Below, one piece after another: positions 53,320 to 64,000 of a DNA stretch of 64,000 nucleotides. Every line of letters begins with the position of its first letter. The stretch's first letter is position 1. Below the pieces are notes generated by a model. It searched no databases. It was not told the origin of the DNA and was given only the letters and a program-made list of their open reading frames with translations. This DNA comes from Aquisphaera giovannonii (GTDB lineage: Bacteria > Planctomycetota > Planctomycetia > Isosphaerales > Isosphaeraceae). The DNA lies in the NCBI RefSeq assembly GCF_008087625.1, contig NZ_CP042997.1, forward strand, positions 4,030,001-4,094,000, in the 5' to 3' direction. The translations under genes and the position numbers were made by a program.

Positions 53320-54726
53320 ATGCTGCTGACGATCACGACGACGCACCGGCCGGCCGGGGACCTCGGGTTCTTGCTCCACAAGCATCCCGGGCGGTTCCAG
53401 AGCTATGACCTGAGCTTCGGCCGGGCGCACGCCTTCTACCCCGAAGCGTCCGACGACCGCTGCACGGCGTGCCTGCTGCTGGACGTGGACCCGGTCGGCG
53501 TGGTGCGGGGCAGGGGGGCCGGCGAGGGGCTGCTGGATCAGTACGTCAACGACCGGCCGTATGCCGCGTCGTCCTTCCTGAGCGTGGCGATCTCCCAGGT
53601 CTTCGGCTCGGCGCTCCAGGCCCGCTGCAACGATCGGCCCGAGCTGGCCGGGACGCCGATCCCGCTGGAGGCCCGCCTGGATGTCCTGCCCGTCCGCGGC
53701 GGCGAGCCCTTCCTCCGCGCCGTCTTCGAGCCGCTCGGCTACCGCGTCGAGGCGACACGCCACCCGCTCGATGAGCGATTTCCGGAGTGGGGCGAGAGCC
53801 CCTACTACAGCGTGACGATCGCCGGCGAGGTGACGCTCTCGGCCTTGCTGACGCACCTGTACGTGCTGGTCCCGGTCTTCGACAACCAAAAGCACTACTT
53901 CGTCGGCGACGACGAGATCGAGAAGCTCCTGGCCAAGGGGGCCGGCTGGCTGGCCGGTCATCCCGAGCGTGACGCGATCACGCGGCGATACCTGCGGTCC
54001 CACCCGAGCCTCTACCGCCAGGCCCTCGCCCGGCTGGTCGAGGAGGAGCCGCCGTCGGAGGCCGTTACGGATGGCGAGGAGCCGCGACACGGCGACCGGG
54101 CCGAGGGTGCGATCGAGAAGCCGCTGAGCCTCCACGAGCAGCGACTCGGCGCCGTGCTGGCTGCCCTCAGGTCGGGCGGGGCCCGGCGGGTGCTGGACCT
54201 CGGCTGCGGCGAGGGGAAGCTGCTGCGGGAGCTGCTCAAGGATCCGCAGTTCGAGGAGATCGTCGGCATGGACGTGTCGATCCGCTCGCTCGAGGTCGCC
54301 CGCGACCGCCTGAAGCTCGATCGCCTGCCCGAGCGCCAGGCGGCCCGGATCAGGCTGATTCACGGCTCCCTGATCTACCGCGATCGTCGCCTCGAGGGGT
54401 TCGACGCCGCCGCCGTGGTCGAGGTCGTCGAGCACCTCGACCCGCCCCGGCTGGCCGCCTTCGAGCGGGCCCTCTTCGAGTTCGCCCGCCCGGGCACGGT
54501 CGTCCTGACGACCCCCAACCGGGAGTACAACGTCACCTGGGAGAACGTCGGCCCCGACCGCCTCCGCCATCCCGACCACCGCTTCGAGTGGACGCGTGAA
54601 GAGTTCCGGTCCTGGGCCGAGGGCATCGCCGGTCGGCATCGTTATACGGTCCGATTCCTGCCCGTCGGGCCGGTGGATGAAGTGCTCGGGCCGCCGACGC
54701 AGATGGGGGTCTTCCGCCGTGACTGA
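53320..54726 (+). CDS. hen1: bacterial Hen1 RNA 3'-terminal ribose 2'-O-methyltransferase
   Basis: A 468-residue bacterial Hen1. The N-terminal Hen1-L domain (about 1-240) begins MLLTITTTHRPAGDLGFLLH and reads KHPGRFQSYDLSFGRAHAFY; in characterised systems it activates the Pnkp ligase. The C-terminal methyltransferase has the SAM motif VLDLGCGEGKLLREL (about 291-305) and the metal site E368/E371/H372 in EVVEHL plus a His of HPDHRFEW near 417-420. Bacterial Hen1 methylates the 2'-OH at a cleaved RNA 3' end before sealing, so the repaired RNA cannot be cut again. The ATG at 53320 begins the conserved sequence. Its Pnkp partner is encoded six genes downstream. The next gene overlaps by 8 bp. Confidence 0.95.
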   Translation: MLLTITTTHRPAGDLGFLLHKHPGRFQSYDLSFGRAHAFYPEASDDRCTACLLLDVDPVGVVRGRGAGEGLLDQYVNDRPYAASSFLSVAISQVFGSALQARCNDRPELAGTPIPLEARLDVLPVRGGEPFLRAVFEPLGYRVEATRHPLDERFPEWGESPYYSVTIAGEVTLSALLTHLYVLVPVFDNQKHYFVGDDEIEKLLAKGAGWLAGHPERDAITRRYLRSHPSLYRQALARLVEEEPPSEAVTDGEEPRHGDRAEGAIEKPLSLHEQRLGAVLAALRSGGARRVLDLGCGEGKLLRELLKDPQFEEIVGMDVSIRSLEVARDRLKLDRLPERQAARIRLIHGSLIYRDRRLEGFDAAAVVEVVEHLDPPRLAAFERALFEFARPGTVVLTTPNREYNVTWENVGPDRLRHPDHRFEWTREEFRSWAEGIAGRHRYTVRFLPVGPVDEVLGPPTQMGVFRRD

Positions 54727-55555
54727 CGTCATCCCGACGACCGTCGAATGGACGCCTCCCGATGACCCTCGCACGATCGACGAGCTGATGATGACCGCCC
54801 TATGCGAGACCGACGAGGATCTCGCCTGGGACGCCATCTCGACGCTCCACCGGCGCGGGACGCGGGAGGTCGTGGATCGGGCCGTCGCCCTTTGCCGGAG
54901 TGCCTGCGCGGTCGAGCGTCGCGTCGGAGCGGACATTCTGGGAAAGCTTGGCCTCCCGGACCGCACCTGTCTCGAGGAGCGCTTCCGTACGCTGCGAGAC
55001 ATGGCCGAGACGGAACAGGATCATCGGGTCTTGCAGGCGATCGTAGCCGCCCTGTCCCACCTCAAAAGGCCGGAGGTCGTCGCCATCGCCTGCCGCTACA
55101 AGAGCCACGAAGACCCCCAGGTCCGCTACGCCGTCGTCCACGCGCTGATCGGACAGACCGACCGCGAGGCCATCGCAACCCTCGTCGAGCTGTCGCGCGA
55201 TCCGGAGGTGCATGTCCGCGACTGGGCGACCTTCGGGCTTGGGTCGATGATCGAGCTGGACACGCCGGAGATCCGCGAGGCGCTCGCGGCCCGGCTCGCG
55301 GACGAGGATTCGGATACCGGCTACGAGGCGATGGTCGGGCTGGCCCGGCTTGGCGATCGGCGGATCCTGCCGGCCCTCATCAGCGAGCGGGAATCCGGGT
55401 CCGTCTGCGTCTACGCGGTCGAGGCGGCGGCCCTCATCGCCGATCCGGGCCTCCATCCGCTCCTGATCGAGCTGCGAGAGTGGTGGGATGTCGCCCCGGA
55501 CCAGCTCGAGGAGGCGATCCGCGCCTGTTCGCCGGGCCCGACCGAGGCGACTTGA
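54719..55555 (+). CDS. HEAT-repeat protein in the RNA-repair operon
   Basis: A 278-residue all-helical protein built from HEAT-like repeats: RRVGADILGKLGLPD, LQAIVAALSHLKRPEVVAIA, PQVRYAVVHALIGQTDREAI, VHVRDWATFGLGSMIELDTP and TGYEAMVGLARLGDRRILPA are successive units. The start is GTG at 54719, 8 bases before the Hen1 stop; an ATG at 54788 lies later but would remove the first helix. Such repeats normally act as scaffolds for protein or nucleic-acid binding. Its overlap with hen1 puts it in the same translational unit, and it may bring together the repair enzymes. I know no description of a HEAT partner for Hen1. Confidence 0.85.
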   Translation: MTDVIPTTVEWTPPDDPRTIDELMMTALCETDEDLAWDAISTLHRRGTREVVDRAVALCRSACAVERRVGADILGKLGLPDRTCLEERFRTLRDMAETEQDHRVLQAIVAALSHLKRPEVVAIACRYKSHEDPQVRYAVVHALIGQTDREAIATLVELSRDPEVHVRDWATFGLGSMIELDTPEIREALAARLADEDSDTGYEAMVGLARLGDRRILPALISERESGSVCVYAVEAAALIADPGLHPLLIELREWWDVAPDQLEEAIRACSPGPTEAT

Positions 55556-55604: not shown

Positions 55605-56909
55605 ATGGCCACCGGACCACACCTGCGGATCGAGGAGGTGGAGCAGAAGGTCTGCGACATCGCCTCGGAGCAACTGGGCATCCCCCGCCAGAAGGTCTCC
55701 CCCGGGTCCCGGATCGTCCAGGACCTGCAGTGCGACAGCCTCGACCTCGTCGAGCTGTTCATGAGCGTCGAGGACGCGTTCGAAGTCACCCTCCCCGACG
55801 GCTCCCCCGATCCCGTCTTCAAGGCCGTCTTCACCCGGCCGGGCTTCCGGCTCGCGGACCTCGCCGAGCTCGTCTACCTCGCCCAGGGGACGGGGAAGCC
55901 GGAAAGGGACGGGTGGCGGCGGGCCCGGGTCGCGACGGCGGCAACGGCGACCATCCCGTTCACGCAGCTCGACGGGCGCTGGGAGCCGGGTTCGACCGAG
56001 CGGCCCGGCCTCTTCGAACCGCTCAAGGCACCGGGGCCGATCCGCCCGTACCGTCGCCGATCCGATGGCATGCGCTGCCTGCGCATCCCTTCGGCGGCCG
56101 TCGAGCTCGGCAGCGACGCGCCCGAGGCGCCGGACGACGAGCGGCCCCGACGCGTGGCGGAGATCGACAGCTTCCTGATCGACGCCGAGCCGGTCTCGAC
56201 GACGGCCTATTGCCGCTTCCTCAACTCCGCCGACGAGGCCGACCCCGCCGTCCTGGCCGATTGGTTCGTACTCGATCCGGAGGACGACCGCATTGAGCAT
56301 ATGCTCATCACGAAATGCGGGCCGGACTGGCGGCCGCGGCCGGGGACCGAGCGGTGGCCGATGATCCTCGTCTCGTGGTACGGCGCGAACGCCTACTCGC
56401 TCTGGGCCAACGGCCGGGACTGGCGGAGCTATCGGGGCGAGGGCGAGCTCGGAGACGGGCAGGAGAGCTTCCTGCCGAGCGAGGCCCAGTGGGAATATGC
56501 CGCGAGGGGCGACCGCAGCCGGACTTACCCCTGGGGGGACGAGCCCTGCACGCCCGATCGGCTGGTCTTCGGCCAGCATCGCAGGGGGGCGACCTACCGG
56601 GCCGAGACGCTGCCGATGGCCGACGTGAACGCCGAGCTCGGTATGTCGCCCTTCGGGCTGCACCACATGGCCGGGAACATCTGGCAGTGGTGCCGGGACT
56701 GGTACGATGGCGCCTTCCCCGCCCGGCCGGAGGCGTCGCTGCCCAATCCGCTCAACCGGACACCCGGCACGGCCCGGAGCGAGCGGGGAGGGAGCTGGGT
56801 CGGCCCGGCCAGCCTCTGCCGCAGCTCCTTCCGGCGGGGCCGACCGCCTCACGCCCGCGGCCGCTGCCTGGGCTTTCGCTGCATCGGCCTCGCGAGCGAC
56901 GCCCGCTGA
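55605..56909 (+). CDS. acyl carrier protein fused to SUMF1/FGE-like domain
   Basis: A 434-residue fusion. Residues 5-92 are an acyl carrier protein: the phosphopantetheine attachment motif is [20 protein letters not shown] with S45. After a linker (about 95-160) comes a SUMF1 (formylglycine-generating enzyme fold) domain: [63 protein letters not shown] and [18 protein letters not shown]. Of the two catalytic Cys in true FGE only the second position is a Cys here (the first is Gly), so it is not a canonical sulfatase activator. The ATG at 55605 follows GGGAGGGC. It lies 49 bp after the HEAT gene and 82 bp before the RNA ligase. A tethered acyl group could be used by or on the SUMF1 domain; that is speculation. 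Confidence 0.85.
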
Positions 56910-56991: not shown

Positions 56992-57732
56992 ATGGGCAGC
57001 TCACGGGACACGTTCGTCAAGTACCCGAGGACGCCCCACCTCTTCGGCTCCCGGGGGACGGACGACGACAGGCACATGGGGGAGGCGGAGTCGCTCCGGT
57101 TCCTCGCGGACGAGTCGCTGATCGTCGAGGAGAAGCTGGACGGCACGAACGTGGGCATCCATTTCTCGGGCGGCGGGGAACTCGTCCTCCAGTGTCGCGG
57201 GCACCTGATCGCGGAGGGGATGCACCCGCAGTACGACCTCTTCAAGCAGTGGGCCGCCGCGAAGCGGCCCGTGCTGGAGGCGATGCTGGAGGACCGGTTC
57301 ATCCTCTTCGGCGAATGGCTCTACGCGAGGCACTCGGTCCACTACCGCGGGCTGCCGCATTACTTCTTCGAGTTCGACGTCTACGACAAGGAGGCGGAGG
57401 CCTTCCTGGACCTGGAGCAGCGGCTCATCCTGCTGGAAGGCACCGGCGTGCGGACGGTGCCGGTGGTCCACAGGGGGGCGATCGGACGCGACGAGCTCTC
57501 GGCACGGATCGTCCCCTCGCGGTATGACAGCGTGTTCGACAACCCGATGACCGGGCGCGCGGACGACCTCATGGAAGGGCTGTACCTGCGGACCGAATCG
57601 AACGGCGCCGTGACCGGCCGGGCCAAGCTCGTGCGGCCGGAGTTCGTCGAAAGGGTCAAGCGGAGCGAGCACTGGCAGCACCAGGCGATGGTCCCGAATC
57701 GCCTGGCCGAGGGGGCGGACATCTGGTCATGA
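56992..57732 (+). CDS. Rnl2-like ATP-dependent RNA ligase
   Basis: A 246-residue nucleotidyltransferase of the RNA_ligase/Rnl2-like family. The adenylated lysine is K48 in [17 protein letters not shown] (motif I KxDGxN). Motif III-like [13 protein letters not shown], motif [13 protein letters not shown] and motif [11 protein letters not shown] are in order. There is only the catalytic domain with a short tail, no OB-fold, as in minimal RNA ligases. It should join 3'-OH and 5'-phosphate RNA ends. The HD/kinase gene overlaps its stop by 4 bp (ATGA), as in Deinococcus-type clusters that pair a ligase with an HD/kinase protein. The start at 56992 is preceded by GGGGGAA. Confidence 0.9.
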
Positions 57733-58856
57733 GCTGGGACGACCTGAACAACGCGGAGCCAGACGAGGTCCTGGCCTGGGCCGAGGCCCAGCCCTGGGCG
57801 GTCGCGATGGCGTCCTGCCAGCAGGATGCGAGCTGGCACGCCGAGGGGGACGTCTGGACCCACACGAAAATGGCCTGCGCCCAGCTCACGGGACTCGACG
57901 AGTGGCCCGACCTGACGGGCCGCGACCGTACCGTGCTCCTGTTCACGGCCCTCTTCCACGATTTCGGCAAGCCCCTCACCTCGCACGTCAATCCAACCAC
58001 CGGGCGGATCACCTCGCCGAAGCACGCCCTGAAGGGCGAACATCTCGCAAGGAACATCCTGCGGGAGCTCGGCTGCGACCTGGAGACGCGGGAACAGATT
58101 GCCCGGCTCGTCCGCTTCCACGGCCGGCCGGCGTTCCTCCTCGAGAAGCCGGAGCCGGACGTCGAGGTCGTCTCCCTCTCCTGGCTCGTCCGCAATCGCC
58201 TGCTCTACCTCTTCGCCCTGGCCGACACCCGGGGCCGGATCACGGCGGAAATGGGCCGGCCCGAGGAGAGCCTTCATGTCTGGCGGCTCGTCGCCGAGGA
58301 GAACGGCTGCCTCGACCGGCCCTATCCCTTCGATAGCGACCACGCGCGGTTCGTATTCTACCGGCAGGAACGCCCGAATCTTCACTACGCGCCCCACGAG
58401 GCCTTCCGAGGCGCGGTGACGATGCTCTCCGGGCTCCCCGGCGCCGGCAAGGACGCGTGGATCGCCGCGAATGCACCCGGCATGCCGGTCGTCTCGCTCG
58501 ATGAGCTCCGTCGCGATCTCGAGATCGAGCCGGACGACGATCAGGGCGAGGTGATCCAGGCGGGACGCGAGCGATGCCGGGAGCACCTGCGGGCGGGCCG
58601 GCCGTTCGTATTCAACGCCACGAACCTCCTCCGCCAGACGCGCCGGAGATGGATCGACCTCTTCGACGACTACGGCGCCCGGATCGAGATCGTCTACATC
58701 GAGCCGCCGCTGTCGGTCATCCTGAAGCAGAACACGCGGAGGGTTCGCCCCGTGCCCGAGCGGGTCATTCGCAGGCTCGCCGAGAAGTGCGAACCGCCGA
58801 CGCTCACGGAAGCGCACGGGCTTGTCATGGTGACTGGCCGGGAGGGTTCGGCATGA
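57729..58856 (+). CDS. HD phosphohydrolase fused to P-loop polynucleotide kinase
   Basis: A 375-residue RNA/DNA end-healing fusion. The HD domain (about 20-200) has H45, the H77-D78 pair in [10 protein letters not shown]99, H131 and D165. The C-terminal kinase (about 228-370) has the Walker [11 protein letters not shown] at 235-244, where the usual Ser/Thr after Lys is Asp, then SLDELRRDL and the lid-side [13 protein letters not shown]. The layout is that of the radiation-induced HD/polynucleotide-kinase protein of Deinococcus radiodurans (DRB0098), which processes 3' and 5' ends. Overlaps of 4 bp on both sides link it to the ligase and the small unknown gene. It should prepare ends for the RNA ligase, and GKD needs checking against active homologues. 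Confidence 0.88.
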
Positions 58857-59251
58857 CGGACGGCGAGCAAGAAGCAACGACGGAAGGTGTGTGGGCGATC
58901 GTCGCCAACATCAAGAAAGAACATCCGTACGGTCCTGGTGGCGTGGAAACGAGGATCGGGACGCGACAGTTCCGTGGTGGGACGAAGGTCTACATCGCCG
59001 GGTGTTTTCCCGGCACTTGTGATGCTGTCGTGGCCATAGGCCTGCACCGCAAGTCCAGGCGGTTCATCACCTGCGCGGTCGATGTCCGGTACGTCGAGAA
59101 CTTCCGCGTCAAGCTTGTCTACCACCCCAGCGTGATCGAACGGATCAAGCAGGACGAGAGTTGCTGGATCCGCACCAAGGAAGAAGCGGAGAAGTGGGCC
59201 GCTGCATTTCCCGAATGGCAAAGGCTCTGGGAAGAGAAGGCGTCAGAATGA
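58853..59251 (+). CDS. small unknown protein inside the RNA-repair operon
   Basis: A 132-residue soluble protein I do not recognise. The body reads as alternating strands ([38 protein letters not shown] then [15 protein letters not shown]), ending with an amphipathic helix rich in Glu, Lys and Trp ([20 protein letters not shown]). GC content is lower than in its neighbours, which may mean more recent arrival. It overlaps the HD/kinase gene and the Pnkp gene by 4 bp each, so its product is made with the repair enzymes. It could be a nucleic-acid-binding or accessory subunit. Confidence 0.75.
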
Positions 59252-61830
59252 CGATAAAGATTCCCAAGCTCAGCCTCGTCGTCCTGATCGGCCCCAGCGG
59301 CTCGGGCAAGAGCACGTTCGCGCGCCGACACTTCAAGCCCACGGAGATCCTCTCGTCGGATTCCTTCCGGGGCATGGTCTCGGACGACGAGAACGACCAG
59401 GCGGCGACGAAGGACGCGTTCGAGGTGCTCCGGTTCGTGGCGGGAAAGCGGCTGGCGCTCGGGAAGCTGACGGTCGTCGACGCGACGAACGTCCAGCCCG
59501 AGGCCCGCAAGCCGCTCGTGGAGCTGGCCCGGCAGTATCACTGCCTTCCGGTGGCCATCGTGCTCGACCTGCCGGAACGGATCTGCCAGGACCGGAACGC
59601 CGGGCGGGCCGACCGCGCCTTCGGCCCGCACGTGATCCGCAACCAGGCCTCGCAGCTACGGCGGTCATTCCGCGCGCTCCGCAAGGAGGGATTCCGGCAC
59701 GTCTTCCGGCTGGAGTCGCCCGAGGACGTCGAGGCGGCCGTCGTCGAGCGAGTCCCCCTCTGGAACGACCGCTCGTCCGAACGCGGCCCGTTCGACATCA
59801 TCGGCGACGTCCACGGCTGCTGCGACGAGCTCGAAGCGTTGCTCGGTCGGCTCGGGTACACCGCGACGACCGGAGGAACCCCGCACTACGCCCACCCCGA
59901 GGGGCGGCGGGCGATCTTCCTCGGCGACCTCGTGGACCGCGGCCCCCGCATCCTCGACACGATGCGGCTGGTCCAGAACATGGTCTCCGCCGGCTCGGCG
60001 CTGTGCGTCCCGGGCAACCACGACATGAAGCTCCTCAAGAAGCTCCAGGGCAGGAACGTCCAGGTCACGCACGGCCTGGCGGACACGCTCTCCGAGATCG
60101 ACGCCCTGCCGGCGGAGCTGCGCGGGCCGCTCTGCGAGGAGCTGGCCCGGTTCCTCGACGGCCTGGTCAGCCACTACGTCCTGGACGGCGGCAGGCTCGT
60201 GGTCGCGCACGCCGGGATGAAGCGGGAGATGCAGGGGCGGGGCTCGGCGAAGGTCCGCGACTTCGCGCTCTACGGCGAGACGACCGGCGAGACCGACGAG
60301 TTCGGCCTCCCCGTCCGTTACGACTGGGCGAGGGAGTACCGCGGCGAGGCCATGGTCGTCTACGGCCACACGCCGGTCCCCGAGCCGGAGTGGCTCAACC
60401 GCACGATCAACATCGACACCGGCTGCGTCTTCGGCGGCCAGCTCACGGCGCTCCGCTACCCGGAGAAGGAGCTCGTCTCCGTCCCCGCGGCGCGGACGTA
60501 CTGCGAGCCGGCCCGGCCGTTCCTGCCCTCCGAGGACCAGGCCCCCGGGCTCTCGGCGCAGCAGGCGCACGACGAGGTGCTGGACGCCGAGGACGTCATC
60601 GGCAAGCGGATCATCTCCACGCGCCTGCGCGGGAACGTGACGATCCGCGAGGAGAACGCCGCCGCGGCCCTGGAGGTCATGAGCCGGTTCGCCGCCGACC
60701 CGAGGTGGCTGATCTACCTCCCGCCGACGATGTCCCCCTGCGAGACCAGCCGGGCCGAGGGCCTCCTCGAGCATCCCGCGGAGGCCTTCGCCTACTACCG
60801 CGCCGAGGGCGTCCCGCGGGTGATCTGCGAGGAGAAGCACATGGGCTCGCGTGCCGTCGTGGTCGCCTGCAAGGACGAGGCGGCGGCCGCGGAGCGGTTC
60901 GGCGTCGCGACCGGCGAGCTCGGCATCGTGACGACGAGGACCGGGCGGAGGTTCTTCCAAGACCCGGACCTGGAGCGTCGATTCCTGGGCCGCGTCCGCG
61001 AGGCCCTCTCCGCCGCCGACATCTGGGGCCGGCTCGAGACGTCCTGGGCACTCCTCGACTGCGAGCTGATGCCGTGGTCGGCCAAGGCCCAGGAGCTCCT
61101 GAAGACGCAGTACGCGGCCGTCGGCGCCGCCGGCTCGGCCTCGACGCCGCGTGCCGTCGCCGCGCTGGAACGGGCGGCCGAGAGGCTGGAGGGTGAGGAG
61201 CGGGACAAGCTCCTGTCGGCGGAGCTGGCGTATCGGCGGCGGGAGCAGGACGTCGGGCGGTTCGTGGCCGCCTACCGGCAGTATTGCTGGAAGGTGGAGT
61301 CGCTCGCCGACCTGAAGCTGGCCCCGTTCCACCTGCTGGCCACCGAGGGGCACGTCCACGCGAACCGGGATCACGCCTGGCACATCGAGACGCTGGCGGA
61401 GGTGTGCCGTGCCGATCCCGGGCTGTTGCTGGCAACCCGGTGCCTGGTCGTGGACGTGACCGACCCGGCCAGCCAGGATGCGGCGGTCGCCTGGTGGCTC
61501 GAGCACACCGGCCGCGGCGGCGAGGGTATGGTCGTGAAGCCCCTCGACTTCGTCCACCGCGGGCGGCGGGGCCTCAGCCAGCCGGCCGTGAAGTGCCGGG
61601 GCCGCGAGTACCTCCGGATCATCTACGGGCCGGAATACACCGAGCAGGAGAACCTCTCCCGGCTGCGGACCCGGGGCCTGGGCCGCAAGCGTTCGCTGGC
61701 CCTGGGCGAGTTCGCCCTCGGCATCGAGGGCCTGGAGCGATTCGTCCGCCGTGAGCCCCTGCGCCGGGTCCACGAGTGCGTCTTCGGCGTCCTGGCCCTG
61801 GAGAGCGAGCCGGTGGATCCGAGGCTCTGA
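59248..61830 (+). CDS. pnkp: bacterial Pnkp: polynucleotide 5'-kinase, 3'-phosphatase and ligase
   Basis: An 860-residue three-domain enzyme, full length for the family. The kinase (1-165) has GPSGSGKSTFARRHF (P-loop at 15-22) and DATNVQPEAR. The metallophosphatase (about 180-420) has GDVHGC (186-191), GDLVDRGP (226-233), GNHD (256-259) and GHTPVPEPEW. The ligase-like adenylyltransferase (about 445-860) has K530 in CEEKHMGSRAVV, further motifs ETSWALLDCELMPW and GEGMVVKPLDF. The enzyme heals 2',3'-cyclic or 3'-phosphate ends to 3'-OH and 5'-OH to 5'-phosphate; sealing needs Hen1, encoded in the same cluster. The ATG at 59248 overlaps the previous stop by 4 bp. It ends the operon. Confidence 0.96.
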   Translation: MTIKIPKLSLVVLIGPSGSGKSTFARRHFKPTEILSSDSFRGMVSDDENDQAATKDAFEVLRFVAGKRLALGKLTVVDATNVQPEARKPLVELARQYHCLPVAIVLDLPERICQDRNAGRADRAFGPHVIRNQASQLRRSFRALRKEGFRHVFRLESPEDVEAAVVERVPLWNDRSSERGPFDIIGDVHGCCDELEALLGRLGYTATTGGTPHYAHPEGRRAIFLGDLVDRGPRILDTMRLVQNMVSAGSALCVPGNHDMKLLKKLQGRNVQVTHGLADTLSEIDALPAELRGPLCEELARFLDGLVSHYVLDGGRLVVAHAGMKREMQGRGSAKVRDFALYGETTGETDEFGLPVRYDWAREYRGEAMVVYGHTPVPEPEWLNRTINIDTGCVFGGQLTALRYPEKELVSVPAARTYCEPARPFLPSEDQAPGLSAQQAHDEVLDAEDVIGKRIISTRLRGNVTIREENAAAALEVMSRFAADPRWLIYLPPTMSPCETSRAEGLLEHPAEAFAYYRAEGVPRVICEEKHMGSRAVVVACKDEAAAAERFGVATGELGIVTTRTGRRFFQDPDLERRFLGRVREALSAADIWGRLETSWALLDCELMPWSAKAQELLKTQYAAVGAAGSASTPRAVAALERAAERLEGEERDKLLSAELAYRRREQDVGRFVAAYRQYCWKVESLADLKLAPFHLLATEGHVHANRDHAWHIETLAEVCRADPGLLLATRCLVVDVTDPASQDAAVAWWLEHTGRGGEGMVVKPLDFVHRGRRGLSQPAVKCRGREYLRIIYGPEYTEQENLSRLRTRGLGRKRSLALGEFALGIEGLERFVRREPLRRVHECVFGVLALESEPVDPRL

Positions 61831-61885: not shown

Positions 61886-64000
61886 TCACGGTCGCGGCGG
61901 TCCCCCGCGAATCGCATCGAGCCTCTCGGGGACCTCGTGCCCCTCGCGGATCAGGTAGCCGGAATCGGGCTCGATCCCGGTGCGGCGGTCGACGCGCCCC
62001 GACGGCCAGGCGACTTCCACGGCCTCGATCCGGGCATCCGCGCCGAGGCCGAAGTGGATGCGGGGGTCGGAGGCGGACTGGTAGCTGCCGCCTCCGGTGC
62101 GCCAGGCGACTCGGTTCCCGCCGGGACGGATCAGCGTCACCTTCGCCCCGACGGCGTCTCGATTGGACTTCGAGCCTTCCAGGCGAAGCACCAGGAAGTG
62201 GCCGCCGGCCGTCCGGTTGTGGAAGTAGGCCAGCGGCTGATCGTGCGAGAGGATCAGCACGTCCTGACGCCCGTCGTTGTCCAGGTCGCCCACCGCGAGT
62301 CCCCGCCCCATCCGCGGCACTTGCCAGACGGCGCCGGCGTGTCCGGAGGCATCTAGCAATCGGCCATCATCCCCGTTCAGCAGGAGCTGGGCCGGCATCA
62401 GGTACGGATAGTTGGGCCGCAGGTCGTTGACGTGCCCGTTGGCCGTGGCCATGTCCATTCGGCCGTCGTTGTTCGCGTCGAACAGGCCCAGCCCGAACCC
62501 GAGGAGGCGGCGGCTCGCGACGTCCAGCCCGATCGAGGCGGTGGCGTCGGTGAAGAGGCCGCCGCCCAGGTTGCGGAAGAAGGAGGTCGACTCGCCGTAG
62601 AAGTTGGTGACGGCCAGGTCGATGAGCCCGTCCGCATCGATGTCGCCGGCAGCGGCGCCCATGCCGGCCTGGTAGATCCCCGAGGCGTTGCTGGCCACGC
62701 CGGCGAGGTGGCCGACCTCCTCGAACCGCATCCCGCCCAGGTTGCGGAACAGGAAGTTGGCCGAGGAGTCGTTGGCGACGAACAGGTCCACCAGGCCGTC
62801 TCCGTCCAGGTCGGCCGCGACCACGCCCAGCCCGCGGCCGTCGCGGTCGATGATGCCGGACTCGGCCGACACGTCGACGAACTTGCCGCCGTCGTTGCGA
62901 AAGAGGCGGTCGGGGAGCGACTCGGCGTCGAGCGGGTTGCAGTTGAGGTAGGCCCCGGTCTTGGCGTCGCGGCAGATCCGGGGATGGTCCAGGTCCCAGG
63001 CCGCGTAGTGGCAGACGTAGAGGTCCAGGTCGCCGTCGTTGTCCAGGTCGGCGAAGGCCGCGGACGTCGGCCAGTCGCGGCGTCCGCCGAGGCCCCAGCG
63101 ATCGGTGGCGTCCTGGAAGCGACAGCCGCCGAGGTTCCTGTACAGGGCGTAGGACCGCCATCGCGTGACGAGCAGGTCGGGCAGGCCGTCGTTGTCCACG
63201 TCTCCCACCGCAACGCCGTGCCCGTGGCCGCGGGGGGAGGGGCCGATCCCGGACCGTCCCGTGATGTCTTCGAAGCTCCCGTCTCCTCGATTGCGGAACA
63301 GCCGGTCCCCCGCGTCGGAGGGCGGGGTTGCCCCCGGATCGGCCGCGTAGGGGCCGCCCTGGACGCAGTAGACGTCGAGCCACCCGTCGCCGTCGACGTC
63401 GAGCACCGCCAGGCCGCCGCCGAAGGGCTCCGGGAGCTGGCGGAGGGGCGTCCCGGCATTGTCGTAGACGAAGCGGAGGCCTGCCGACTCGGCCTCATCG
63501 GCGAAGGCTGGCCGGCCGTCGGTCGCACGGCCGGGCCCGCTCGGCCGGCCAGGCGCGTGCGTGGCCTCGGGTTCCAGCGCGTGGGCCGCTAGCTCAAGGG
63601 CCCATCGCCGGGCCGAATCGTCGCGATCGAGCCGGGCGAGGCCCTCCCGGGCGGCCGGGGCGCCCGGCGAGGCCTTCAGGGCCCAGGCGAAGAGCGCGCG
63701 GGCCTCGTGCCGGAGGCCCGCCTCCTCCGCCAGCCGGGCGAGCGCGGCCCGCTCGGCCGGCGTGCGCGGGGGCTCCTCGCGCCAGAGGAGGAGGCGATAC
63801 GCCGCCATCGCCCGCTCGACGTCGCCCTGGCGCCGCCGTAGCTCCGCGACGCGTCCCGGGCGGCCGGCCCGGTGGGCCAGCTCGACCAGCCGCTCCATCG
63901 CCCGGATCGCCCCGGGCTCGAGCGCCAGCCAGGCTTCCGTCGCGGCGGCCTCCGCCTCGGCGTCGCCGCCCCGCCGGGCGAGCCAGGCGCGCAGCTCGAG
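61886..64000 (-). CDS. TPR / FG-GAP / ASPIC-UnbV repeat protein (5' end outside window)
   Basis: At least 704 residues, cut off by the window's right edge. The visible N-terminal part (from the edge to about 63540) is helical with TPR-like Ala/Leu/Arg pairs (AYRLLLWREE, ARALFAWALKASPGAPAARE). Then follows a beta-propeller of FG-GAP/VCBS repeats with calcium-binding DxDxDGxxD loops (DVDGDGWLDVYC, DVDNDGLPDLLV, DLDNDGDLDLYV, DLDGDGLVDLFV). The C-terminus is the ASPIC/UnbV domain (NRDAVGAKVTLIRPGGNRVA, then HFGLGADARIEAVEVAWPSG). Such proteins are exported and are abundant in planctomycetes and Acidobacteria, but no activity is defined. It converges with Pnkp, 55 bp away. The reading frame is open to the edge, so the ATG at 63898 is not necessarily the start. 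Confidence 0.88.
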   Translation of the reverse strand, partial: LELRAWLARRGGDAEAEAAATEAWLALEPGAIRAMERLVELAHRAGRPGRVAELRRRQGDVERAMAAYRLLLWREEPPRTPAERAALARLAEEAGLRHEARALFAWALKASPGAPAAREGLARLDRDDSARRWALELAAHALEPEATHAPGRPSGPGRATDGRPAFADEAESAGLRFVYDNAGTPLRQLPEPFGGGLAVLDVDGDGWLDVYCVQGGPYAADPGATPPSDAGDRLFRNRGDGSFEDITGRSGIGPSPRGHGHGVAVGDVDNDGLPDLLVTRWRSYALYRNLGGCRFQDATDRWGLGGRRDWPTSAAFADLDNDGDLDLYVCHYAAWDLDHPRICRDAKTGAYLNCNPLDAESLPDRLFRNDGGKFVDVSAESGIIDRDGRGLGVVAADLDGDGLVDLFVANDSSANFLFRNLGGMRFEEVGHLAGVASNASGIYQAGMGAAAGDIDADGLIDLAVTNFYGESTSFFRNLGGGLFTDATASIGLDVASRRLLGFGLGLFDANNDGRMDMATANGHVNDLRPNYPYLMPAQLLLNGDDGRLLDASGHAGAVWQVPRMGRGLAVGDLDNDGRQDVLILSHDQPLAYFHNRTAGGHFLVLRLEGSKSNRDAVGAKVTLIRPGGNRVAWRTGGGSYQSASDPRIHFGLGADARIEAVEVAWPSGRVDRRTGIEPDSGYLIREGHEVPERLDAIRGGPPRP

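Follow-up and report, generated by a model that had tools for sequence, protein, structure and literature searches.

A carrier-protein–SUMF1 fusion that recurs beside RNA-repair genes in planctomycetes

We asked why a gene for an acyl carrier protein (ACP) fused to a SUMF1 domain should lie among RNA-repair genes in the planctomycete Aquisphaera giovannonii. Ligases, kinases, phosphatases, methylases and nucleotidyltransferases are all known from RNA-repair operons; the papers cited here describe no thioester or thiol carrier in such operons, and literature searches on carrier proteins with RNA repair, and on SUMF1 with carrier proteins, returned nothing relevant. In the window, the 64,000-nucleotide stretch of DNA that was analysed, genes for Hen1, a HEAT-repeat protein, the ACP–SUMF1 fusion, an RNA ligase, an HD-domain kinase, a small protein and Pnkp follow one another in this order, overlapping or closely spaced (Table 1). 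The Hen1 and Pnkp genes flank the fusion gene, bearing out the original prediction that it lies inside an RNA-repair operon. This arrangement resembles the Pnkp–Hen1 and Pnkp1–Rnl–Hen1 complexes (PMC4411300) in pairing Hen1 with Pnkp, here alongside an RNA ligase and an HD-kinase, but it differs from Pnkp–Hen1 systems in its extra gene between Hen1–HEAT and Pnkp, which close relatives lack; the described complexes contain no ACP or SUMF1 subunit (PMC4411300).

The fusion gene reads from ATG 55605 to TGA 56909 as 434 uninterrupted codons, with a purine-rich, ribosome-binding-like GGGAGGG a short distance 5′ of the start. Its GC content by codon position is 0.69/0.55/0.91, the third-position value fitting a genuine gene in the source genome. 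An alternative in-frame ATG lies 39 codons 5′ at 55488; homologues mostly begin near 55605. The long open frame on the reverse strand of the gene was taken as a GC-rich shadow. Pfam places PP-binding at residues 14–65 (5.6e-6, above the cut-off) and FGE-sulfatase (PF03781) at residues 159–427 (1.9e-38), and these matches, together with an invariant Ser45 and the two-domain homologues described below, uphold the earlier description of an ACP with Ser45 joined to a SUMF1 domain.

Table 1 Coordinates in the window of the fusion gene, its parts and the surrounding RNA-repair genes
Feature	Position	Strand	Evidence
Hen1 3′-terminal RNA ribose 2′-O-methyltransferase	53320..54726, start approximate	+	TIGR04074, 696.7 bits vs cut-off 340
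HEAT-repeat protein	54719..55555, start approximate	+	HEAT_2 5.8e-17; after Hen1 also in G398, G464 and G413
ACP–SUMF1 fusion, 434 aa	55605..56909	+	Pfam PP-binding and FGE-sulfatase; 31 further homologues; one clade; AlphaFold
Acyl carrier domain, residues ~1–100	55605..55904	+	PP-binding 14–65; profile match 2ehs; model helices
Ser45 codon, predicted 4′-phosphopantetheine site	55737..55739	+	Invariant across 31 aligned homologues
Conserved linker, residues ~101–158, PFxQLxG and a further 10-residue motif	55905..56078	+	Invariant residues
SUMF1 (FGE-sulfatase) domain, residues 159–427	56079..56885	+	PF03781 1.9e-38; Foldseek 6xtq 1.6e-18
C-terminal signature E393–C426, 34 residues	56781..56882	+	Gly400, Cys405, clade-specific Cys421
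RNA ligase	56992..57732	+	PF09414 4.6e-34
HD domain and P-loop kinase protein	57729..58856	+	PF01966 1.5e-6; PF13671 1e-23; overlaps ligase stop codon
Small protein, about 130 aa, overlapping HD-kinase and Pnkp genes	58853..59251	+	No Pfam/NCBIfam match
Bacterial Pnkp (kinase-phosphatase-ligase)	59248..61830	+	TIGR04075, 1409 bits vs cut-off 750

Homologues were drawn from 392 genomes of the phylum, 398 genomes of the class, GTDB contigs and three family searches. With the window copy included, the fusion is known from 32 planctomycete species in about 19 genera; the 31 further homologues are full length and, as far as sampled, all fall within the window's class, among them those of Candidatus Laterigemmans baculatus and a Planctomycetaceae MAG, each counted once. 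These full-length proteins from further planctomycete species refute an assembly artefact, the possibility raised with the original prediction. Identity to the window copy is 45–68% over the whole two-domain protein (30 further species, aligned), and carriers make up 5 of the 45 genomes of the window's family. In the alignment of 31, D40, L41, S45 and L46 are invariant in the carrier domain, as are F119, L122, G124, R151, D154, G155 and M156 in the linker, and a 36-residue C-terminal signature is almost unchanged. The SUMF1 halves of 31 fusions form one clade (support 100/100, stem 0.99), while those planctomycete proteins that have both Cys of the FGE motif form a clade of their own, apart from it. 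Judged from these sequences, the distribution is consistent with a fusion that arose once and was kept thereafter. A variable protein of a diversity-generating element was rejected because the C terminus is the most conserved part rather than hypervariable. Nor was there a phage match, viral contigs yielding only relatives of the SUMF1 part (22–40% identity), and no plasmid match was full length, coverage of the query reaching 71% at best and identity 28–33%. The PADLOC anti-phage defence models gave no match for the fusion protein.

The association with RNA repair recurs well beyond the window. Repair genes are linked to the fusion at 13 of 32 loci, in seven genera spread over the two main halves of the tree; they comprise Hen1, Pnkp, Rnl, RlaP, Thg1, R2K ATP-grasp and Macro; three times the fusion lies inside the repair operon itself. 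Within 12 kb, linkage is seen in 6 of 16 carrier genera of the class sample, against about 1% by chance (P about 1e-8). The gene orders differ from locus to locus: Hen1–HEAT–fusion–(288 aa)–Pnkp in one genome (G398, L076) and Thg1–Rnl–HDkinase–Hen1–RlaP–R2K–RlaP–fusion–Pnkp in another (G644, L089), where the cluster from Rnl through Pnkp occupies one strand (L089:7315-17451) and Thg1 stands directly ahead. Across the seven genomes of genus g4, Rnl, HD-kinase and Hen1 begin 4–8 kb downstream of the fusion on the same strand; at six g4 loci (L048-L050, L081, L082, L084) PcfJ-like proteins lie in between, joined in four of the six by a Thg1 gene. Two RlaP genes are found 2.7 kb downstream of the fusion in G421 (L087), and consecutive R2K ATP-grasp, Macro and ACP–SUMF1 genes occur in two genera (G647, L090; G775, L228). 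This last unit spans L090:7245-9777 and L228:9166-11704, its middle Macro gene being 74% identical between the loci.

The gene kinds that neighbour the fusion at L087, L089, L090 and L228 are those of described RlaP/R2K/Macro RNA-repair and conflict modules, in whose description SUMF1 was not found (PMC7824862). There, RlaP enzymes are nucleotidyltransferases believed to put back bases lost from RNA ends, R2K enzymes have the predicted activity of joining aminoacyl groups to proteins, and Macro domains act on ADP-ribose products (PMC7824862), so the company of the fusion is one of end-repair and modification chemistry.

At the other 19 of the 32 loci, no repair gene appeared in the stretch read (usually 8–10 kb per side, less at contig ends). 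Two relatives, G464 of the window's own genus and G413, carry Hen1–HEAT and then Pnkp without the fusion; Hen1–Pnkp is likewise present without it in G512 and G484, and G152 has Hen1–RlaP–R2K–RlaP–Pnkp with its own fusion gene distant. The anticipated conserved placement of the fusion next to hen1 and pnkp thus holds in part: it lies in or near repair genes in seven genera, but at most of its loci none appeared in the stretch read, and the close relatives G464 and G413 lack the fusion. The link between fusion and RNA repair is real, yet it is not obligatory, and the fusion is not essential to the operon.

Co-occurrence by genome points the same way. Among the 398 class genomes, and uncorrected for relatedness or genome size, Pnkp is present in 20 of 29 carriers versus 98 of 369 others (odds ratio 6.1, p 6e-6) and RlaP in 24 of 29 versus 150 of 369 (odds ratio 7.0, p 9e-6). 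Counted by genus, RlaP is found in 15 of 16 carrier genera versus 74 of 170. Several carriers whose fusion is unlinked still have Pnkp and RlaP elsewhere in the genome; at the thresholds used, four of the 29 carrier genomes (G069, G339, G645 and G707) have neither. No alternative neighbour recurs across distant genera at the annotated unlinked loci, where amidohydrolase, BNR, beta-helix, PurK and other genes recur within one genus at most, and the fusion loci as a whole share no acyltransferase or loading enzyme. Because the gene recurs beside RNA-repair genes, the fusion is probably an uncharacterised RNA-repair helper.

What the SUMF1 half might do can be approached through its resemblance to formylglycine-generating enzyme (FGE). 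The family profile of this half finds FGE 6muj as its best match in the PDB (1.7e-24), and Foldseek on the fusion model ranks FGE 6xtq first (1.6e-18, 28% identity), followed by CalU17, PvdO, SUMF2, EgtB/OvoA-type enzymes and ToxD. With aerobic FGE (SUMF1, PF03781) the protein shares the fold, the GGS motif, the second active-site Cys and a Ser, Ser397, at the Ser333 position of human FGE. It differs in its fused ACP and in the active site: the positions of human Cys336, His337, Tyr340 and Cys341 align with Gly400, Pro401, Leu404 and Cys405, all four invariant in the 31 aligned fusion proteins. The 14-residue C-terminal motif picked out earlier is present, its first FGE Cys replaced and its second kept. 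The accompanying view that formylglycine production is unlikely stands, given Gly, Pro and Leu at the Cys336, His337 and Tyr340 positions and a clade separate from the two-Cys FGEs, and we rejected a true FGE on its active-site residues and tree position.

The fusion is like EgtB, OvoA, PvdO, ToxD and CalU17, SUMF1-fold enzymes of small-molecule pathways, in structure, whereas identity to them is 18–22% and an ACP in cis was not found in those matches. EgtB and OvoA bind iron in a DinB domain; an EgtB/OvoA-like sulfoxide synthase was set aside because the fusion has no DinB domain, Pfam finding PP-binding and FGE-sulfatase only. A GldK/PorK identity was also dropped, its scores lying far under the cut-off.

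Beyond the replaced copper Cys, E195, S198, C203, R204, N207, D227, R229, H354, E393, R411, R413, R420 and C421 are fixed in the fusion clade and rare elsewhere in SUMF1 proteins, a pattern that suggests, at the level of sequence, a site rebuilt rather than decayed. The C-terminal GRCLGFRC contains invariant Cys421 and Cys426, and Cys421, specific to the fusion clade, takes the place of the Asn immediately before LGFRC in human FGE, a residue we take to line the substrate groove. Mutating Ser333, Cys336, His337, Tyr340 or Cys341 alters human FGE activity, and FGE C336S traps the substrate Cys in a disulfide with Cys341 (PMC4505483). From this trapping we infer that Cys405 is located where a thiol, possibly a pantetheine thiol, could bind.

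The carrier half resembles type II fatty-acid AcpP in its DSL motif, the order of its four helices (9–24, 45–59, 70–76 and 83–92 in the AlphaFold model) and its match to AcpP structures, the family profile finding the AcpP-type ACP 2ehs best in the PDB (1.1e-15). Ser45 sits in D44-S45-L46 and is invariant across all 31 aligned homologues. The source genome encodes its own AcpP, whose sequence the carrier domain matches, and two genes of the phosphopantetheinyl-transferase (ACPS) family. Unlike AcpP, the carrier is a fused N-terminal domain that scores below NCBIfam acyl-carrier cut-offs, and it has an extra conserved segment, KxIFTRxPFR, around residues 73–82, between helices II and IV.

AlphaFold run on close homologues alone gave a pLDDT of 62.7 and a poor SUMF1 half; when distant SUMF1 sequences were added (58 sequences), the fusion was modelled as one confident two-domain unit (mean pLDDT 94.2, pTM 0.93). 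For a 434-residue two-domain protein this pTM suggests that, in the model, the ACP is placed confidently relative to the SUMF1 domain. The architecture is new, and the folds are known.

The reading we favour, tentatively and at somewhat under an even chance, is that of a planctomycete-specific accessory protein of RNA-repair loci in which the arm on Ser45 brings a group to a redesigned SUMF1 pocket working through Cys405. An AcpS-type transferase would load 4′-phosphopantetheine onto Ser45, a step suggested by the transferases in the genome and by a DSL motif that is AcpP-like and invariant. The ACP would then pack on SUMF1 in a defined manner rather than swing freely, to judge from the pTM of 0.93 and the conserved linker, and such packing could let the arm enter the groove that holds the substrate peptide in FGE. 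In a pocket apparently rebuilt by loss of the copper Cys pair and fixation of Cys405 with Glu393, Arg411, Arg413, Arg420, Cys421 and His354, the thiol or thioester of the arm might meet Cys405, allowing thiol-based transfer or oxidation of the arm-bound group. More speculatively, the group could be passed to, or readied for, an acceptor that belongs either to RNA repair or to the accompanying ADP-ribose or aminoacyl chemistry (Macro and R2K ATP-grasp genes, at some loci). As suggested earlier, what is delivered might be an acyl group, and RNA, a repair enzyme or a toxin might receive it. In a narrower version, which we consider unlikely, the arm is loaded (at loci with an adjacent R2K ATP-grasp ligase, perhaps by that enzyme), and Cys405 processes or transfers the group so that the product reaches damaged RNA ends or a repair or translation protein; if true, this would place acyl- or aminoacyl-carrier chemistry within an RNA-repair pathway. 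More generally, a fusion beside repair genes suggests that RNA repair includes a chemical step not yet recognised or that it is tied to acyl/CoA status, and a SUMF1 subfamily with carrier and pocket fused lets the substrate of these orphan enzymes be sought directly, on the arm, by mass spectrometry.

Chief among the rivals of the arm-in-pocket reading is that the ACP serves a purely structural purpose. The ACP, with an acyl chain or none, would stabilise or gate a non-catalytic, C-type-lectin-like SUMF1 binding domain with no group transfer, by analogy with mitochondrial ACP as a subunit; candidate ligands include repair proteins and the ends of RNA. The fixed packing that AlphaFold models with confidence would suit this role, as does the non-FGE nature of most SUMF1 homologues matched in other genomes, and the invariant arginines R410 R411 G R413 ... 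R420 could bind phosphate; we nevertheless hold it to be rather unlikely, since, with Cys405 and Cys421 invariant and the C-terminal signature nearly identical, the region resembles an active or tightly constrained site. That site might alternatively still work as a formylglycine-type copper oxidase, with Cys405 and Cys421 or the arm thiol ligating copper and the phosphopantetheine thiol or a partner Cys as substrate. Copper FGEs are indeed the closest solved folds, Cys405 is retained and the new invariant Cys421 lies in the same C-terminal region, yet every aligned homologue has Gly for the first copper Cys and all have Pro and Leu at the activity-affecting His337 and Tyr340 positions (PMC4505483), which leaves an oxidase highly improbable.

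The linkage data bear on a different doubt, that the protein is a general lipid or secondary-metabolism enzyme encoded by an accessory, mobile gene that enters variable RNA-repair islands and has no repair role. Its 19 unlinked loci, its patchy occurrence within genera and in the window's family, and structural matches to PvdO, CalU17 and ToxD of natural-product pathways all fit that account. We regard it as improbable, however, because linkage spans seven genera and both tree halves, involves differing repair genes and falls thrice within the operon, while annotated unlinked loci offer no alternative neighbours recurring across distant genera and several unlinked carriers keep Pnkp and RlaP elsewhere.

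Around the operon itself, a large protein with repeated D-x-D-x-D-G, FG-GAP/VCBS-like by eye, is encoded convergently to the repair genes at 61886-63898 on the reverse strand of the window. An RlaP gene lies outside the window about 9 kb past the end of Pnkp (L139:9767-10477), so the repair island may reach past the window. Elsewhere in the sample, the Pnkp gene at G455:C1:4231624-4234227 is interrupted by one internal TAG and may be a pseudogene or reflect a sequencing error, and at G557:C284:5547-11757 a stretch of about 6 kb encodes four SUMF1 proteins in tandem, which looks like a local expansion.
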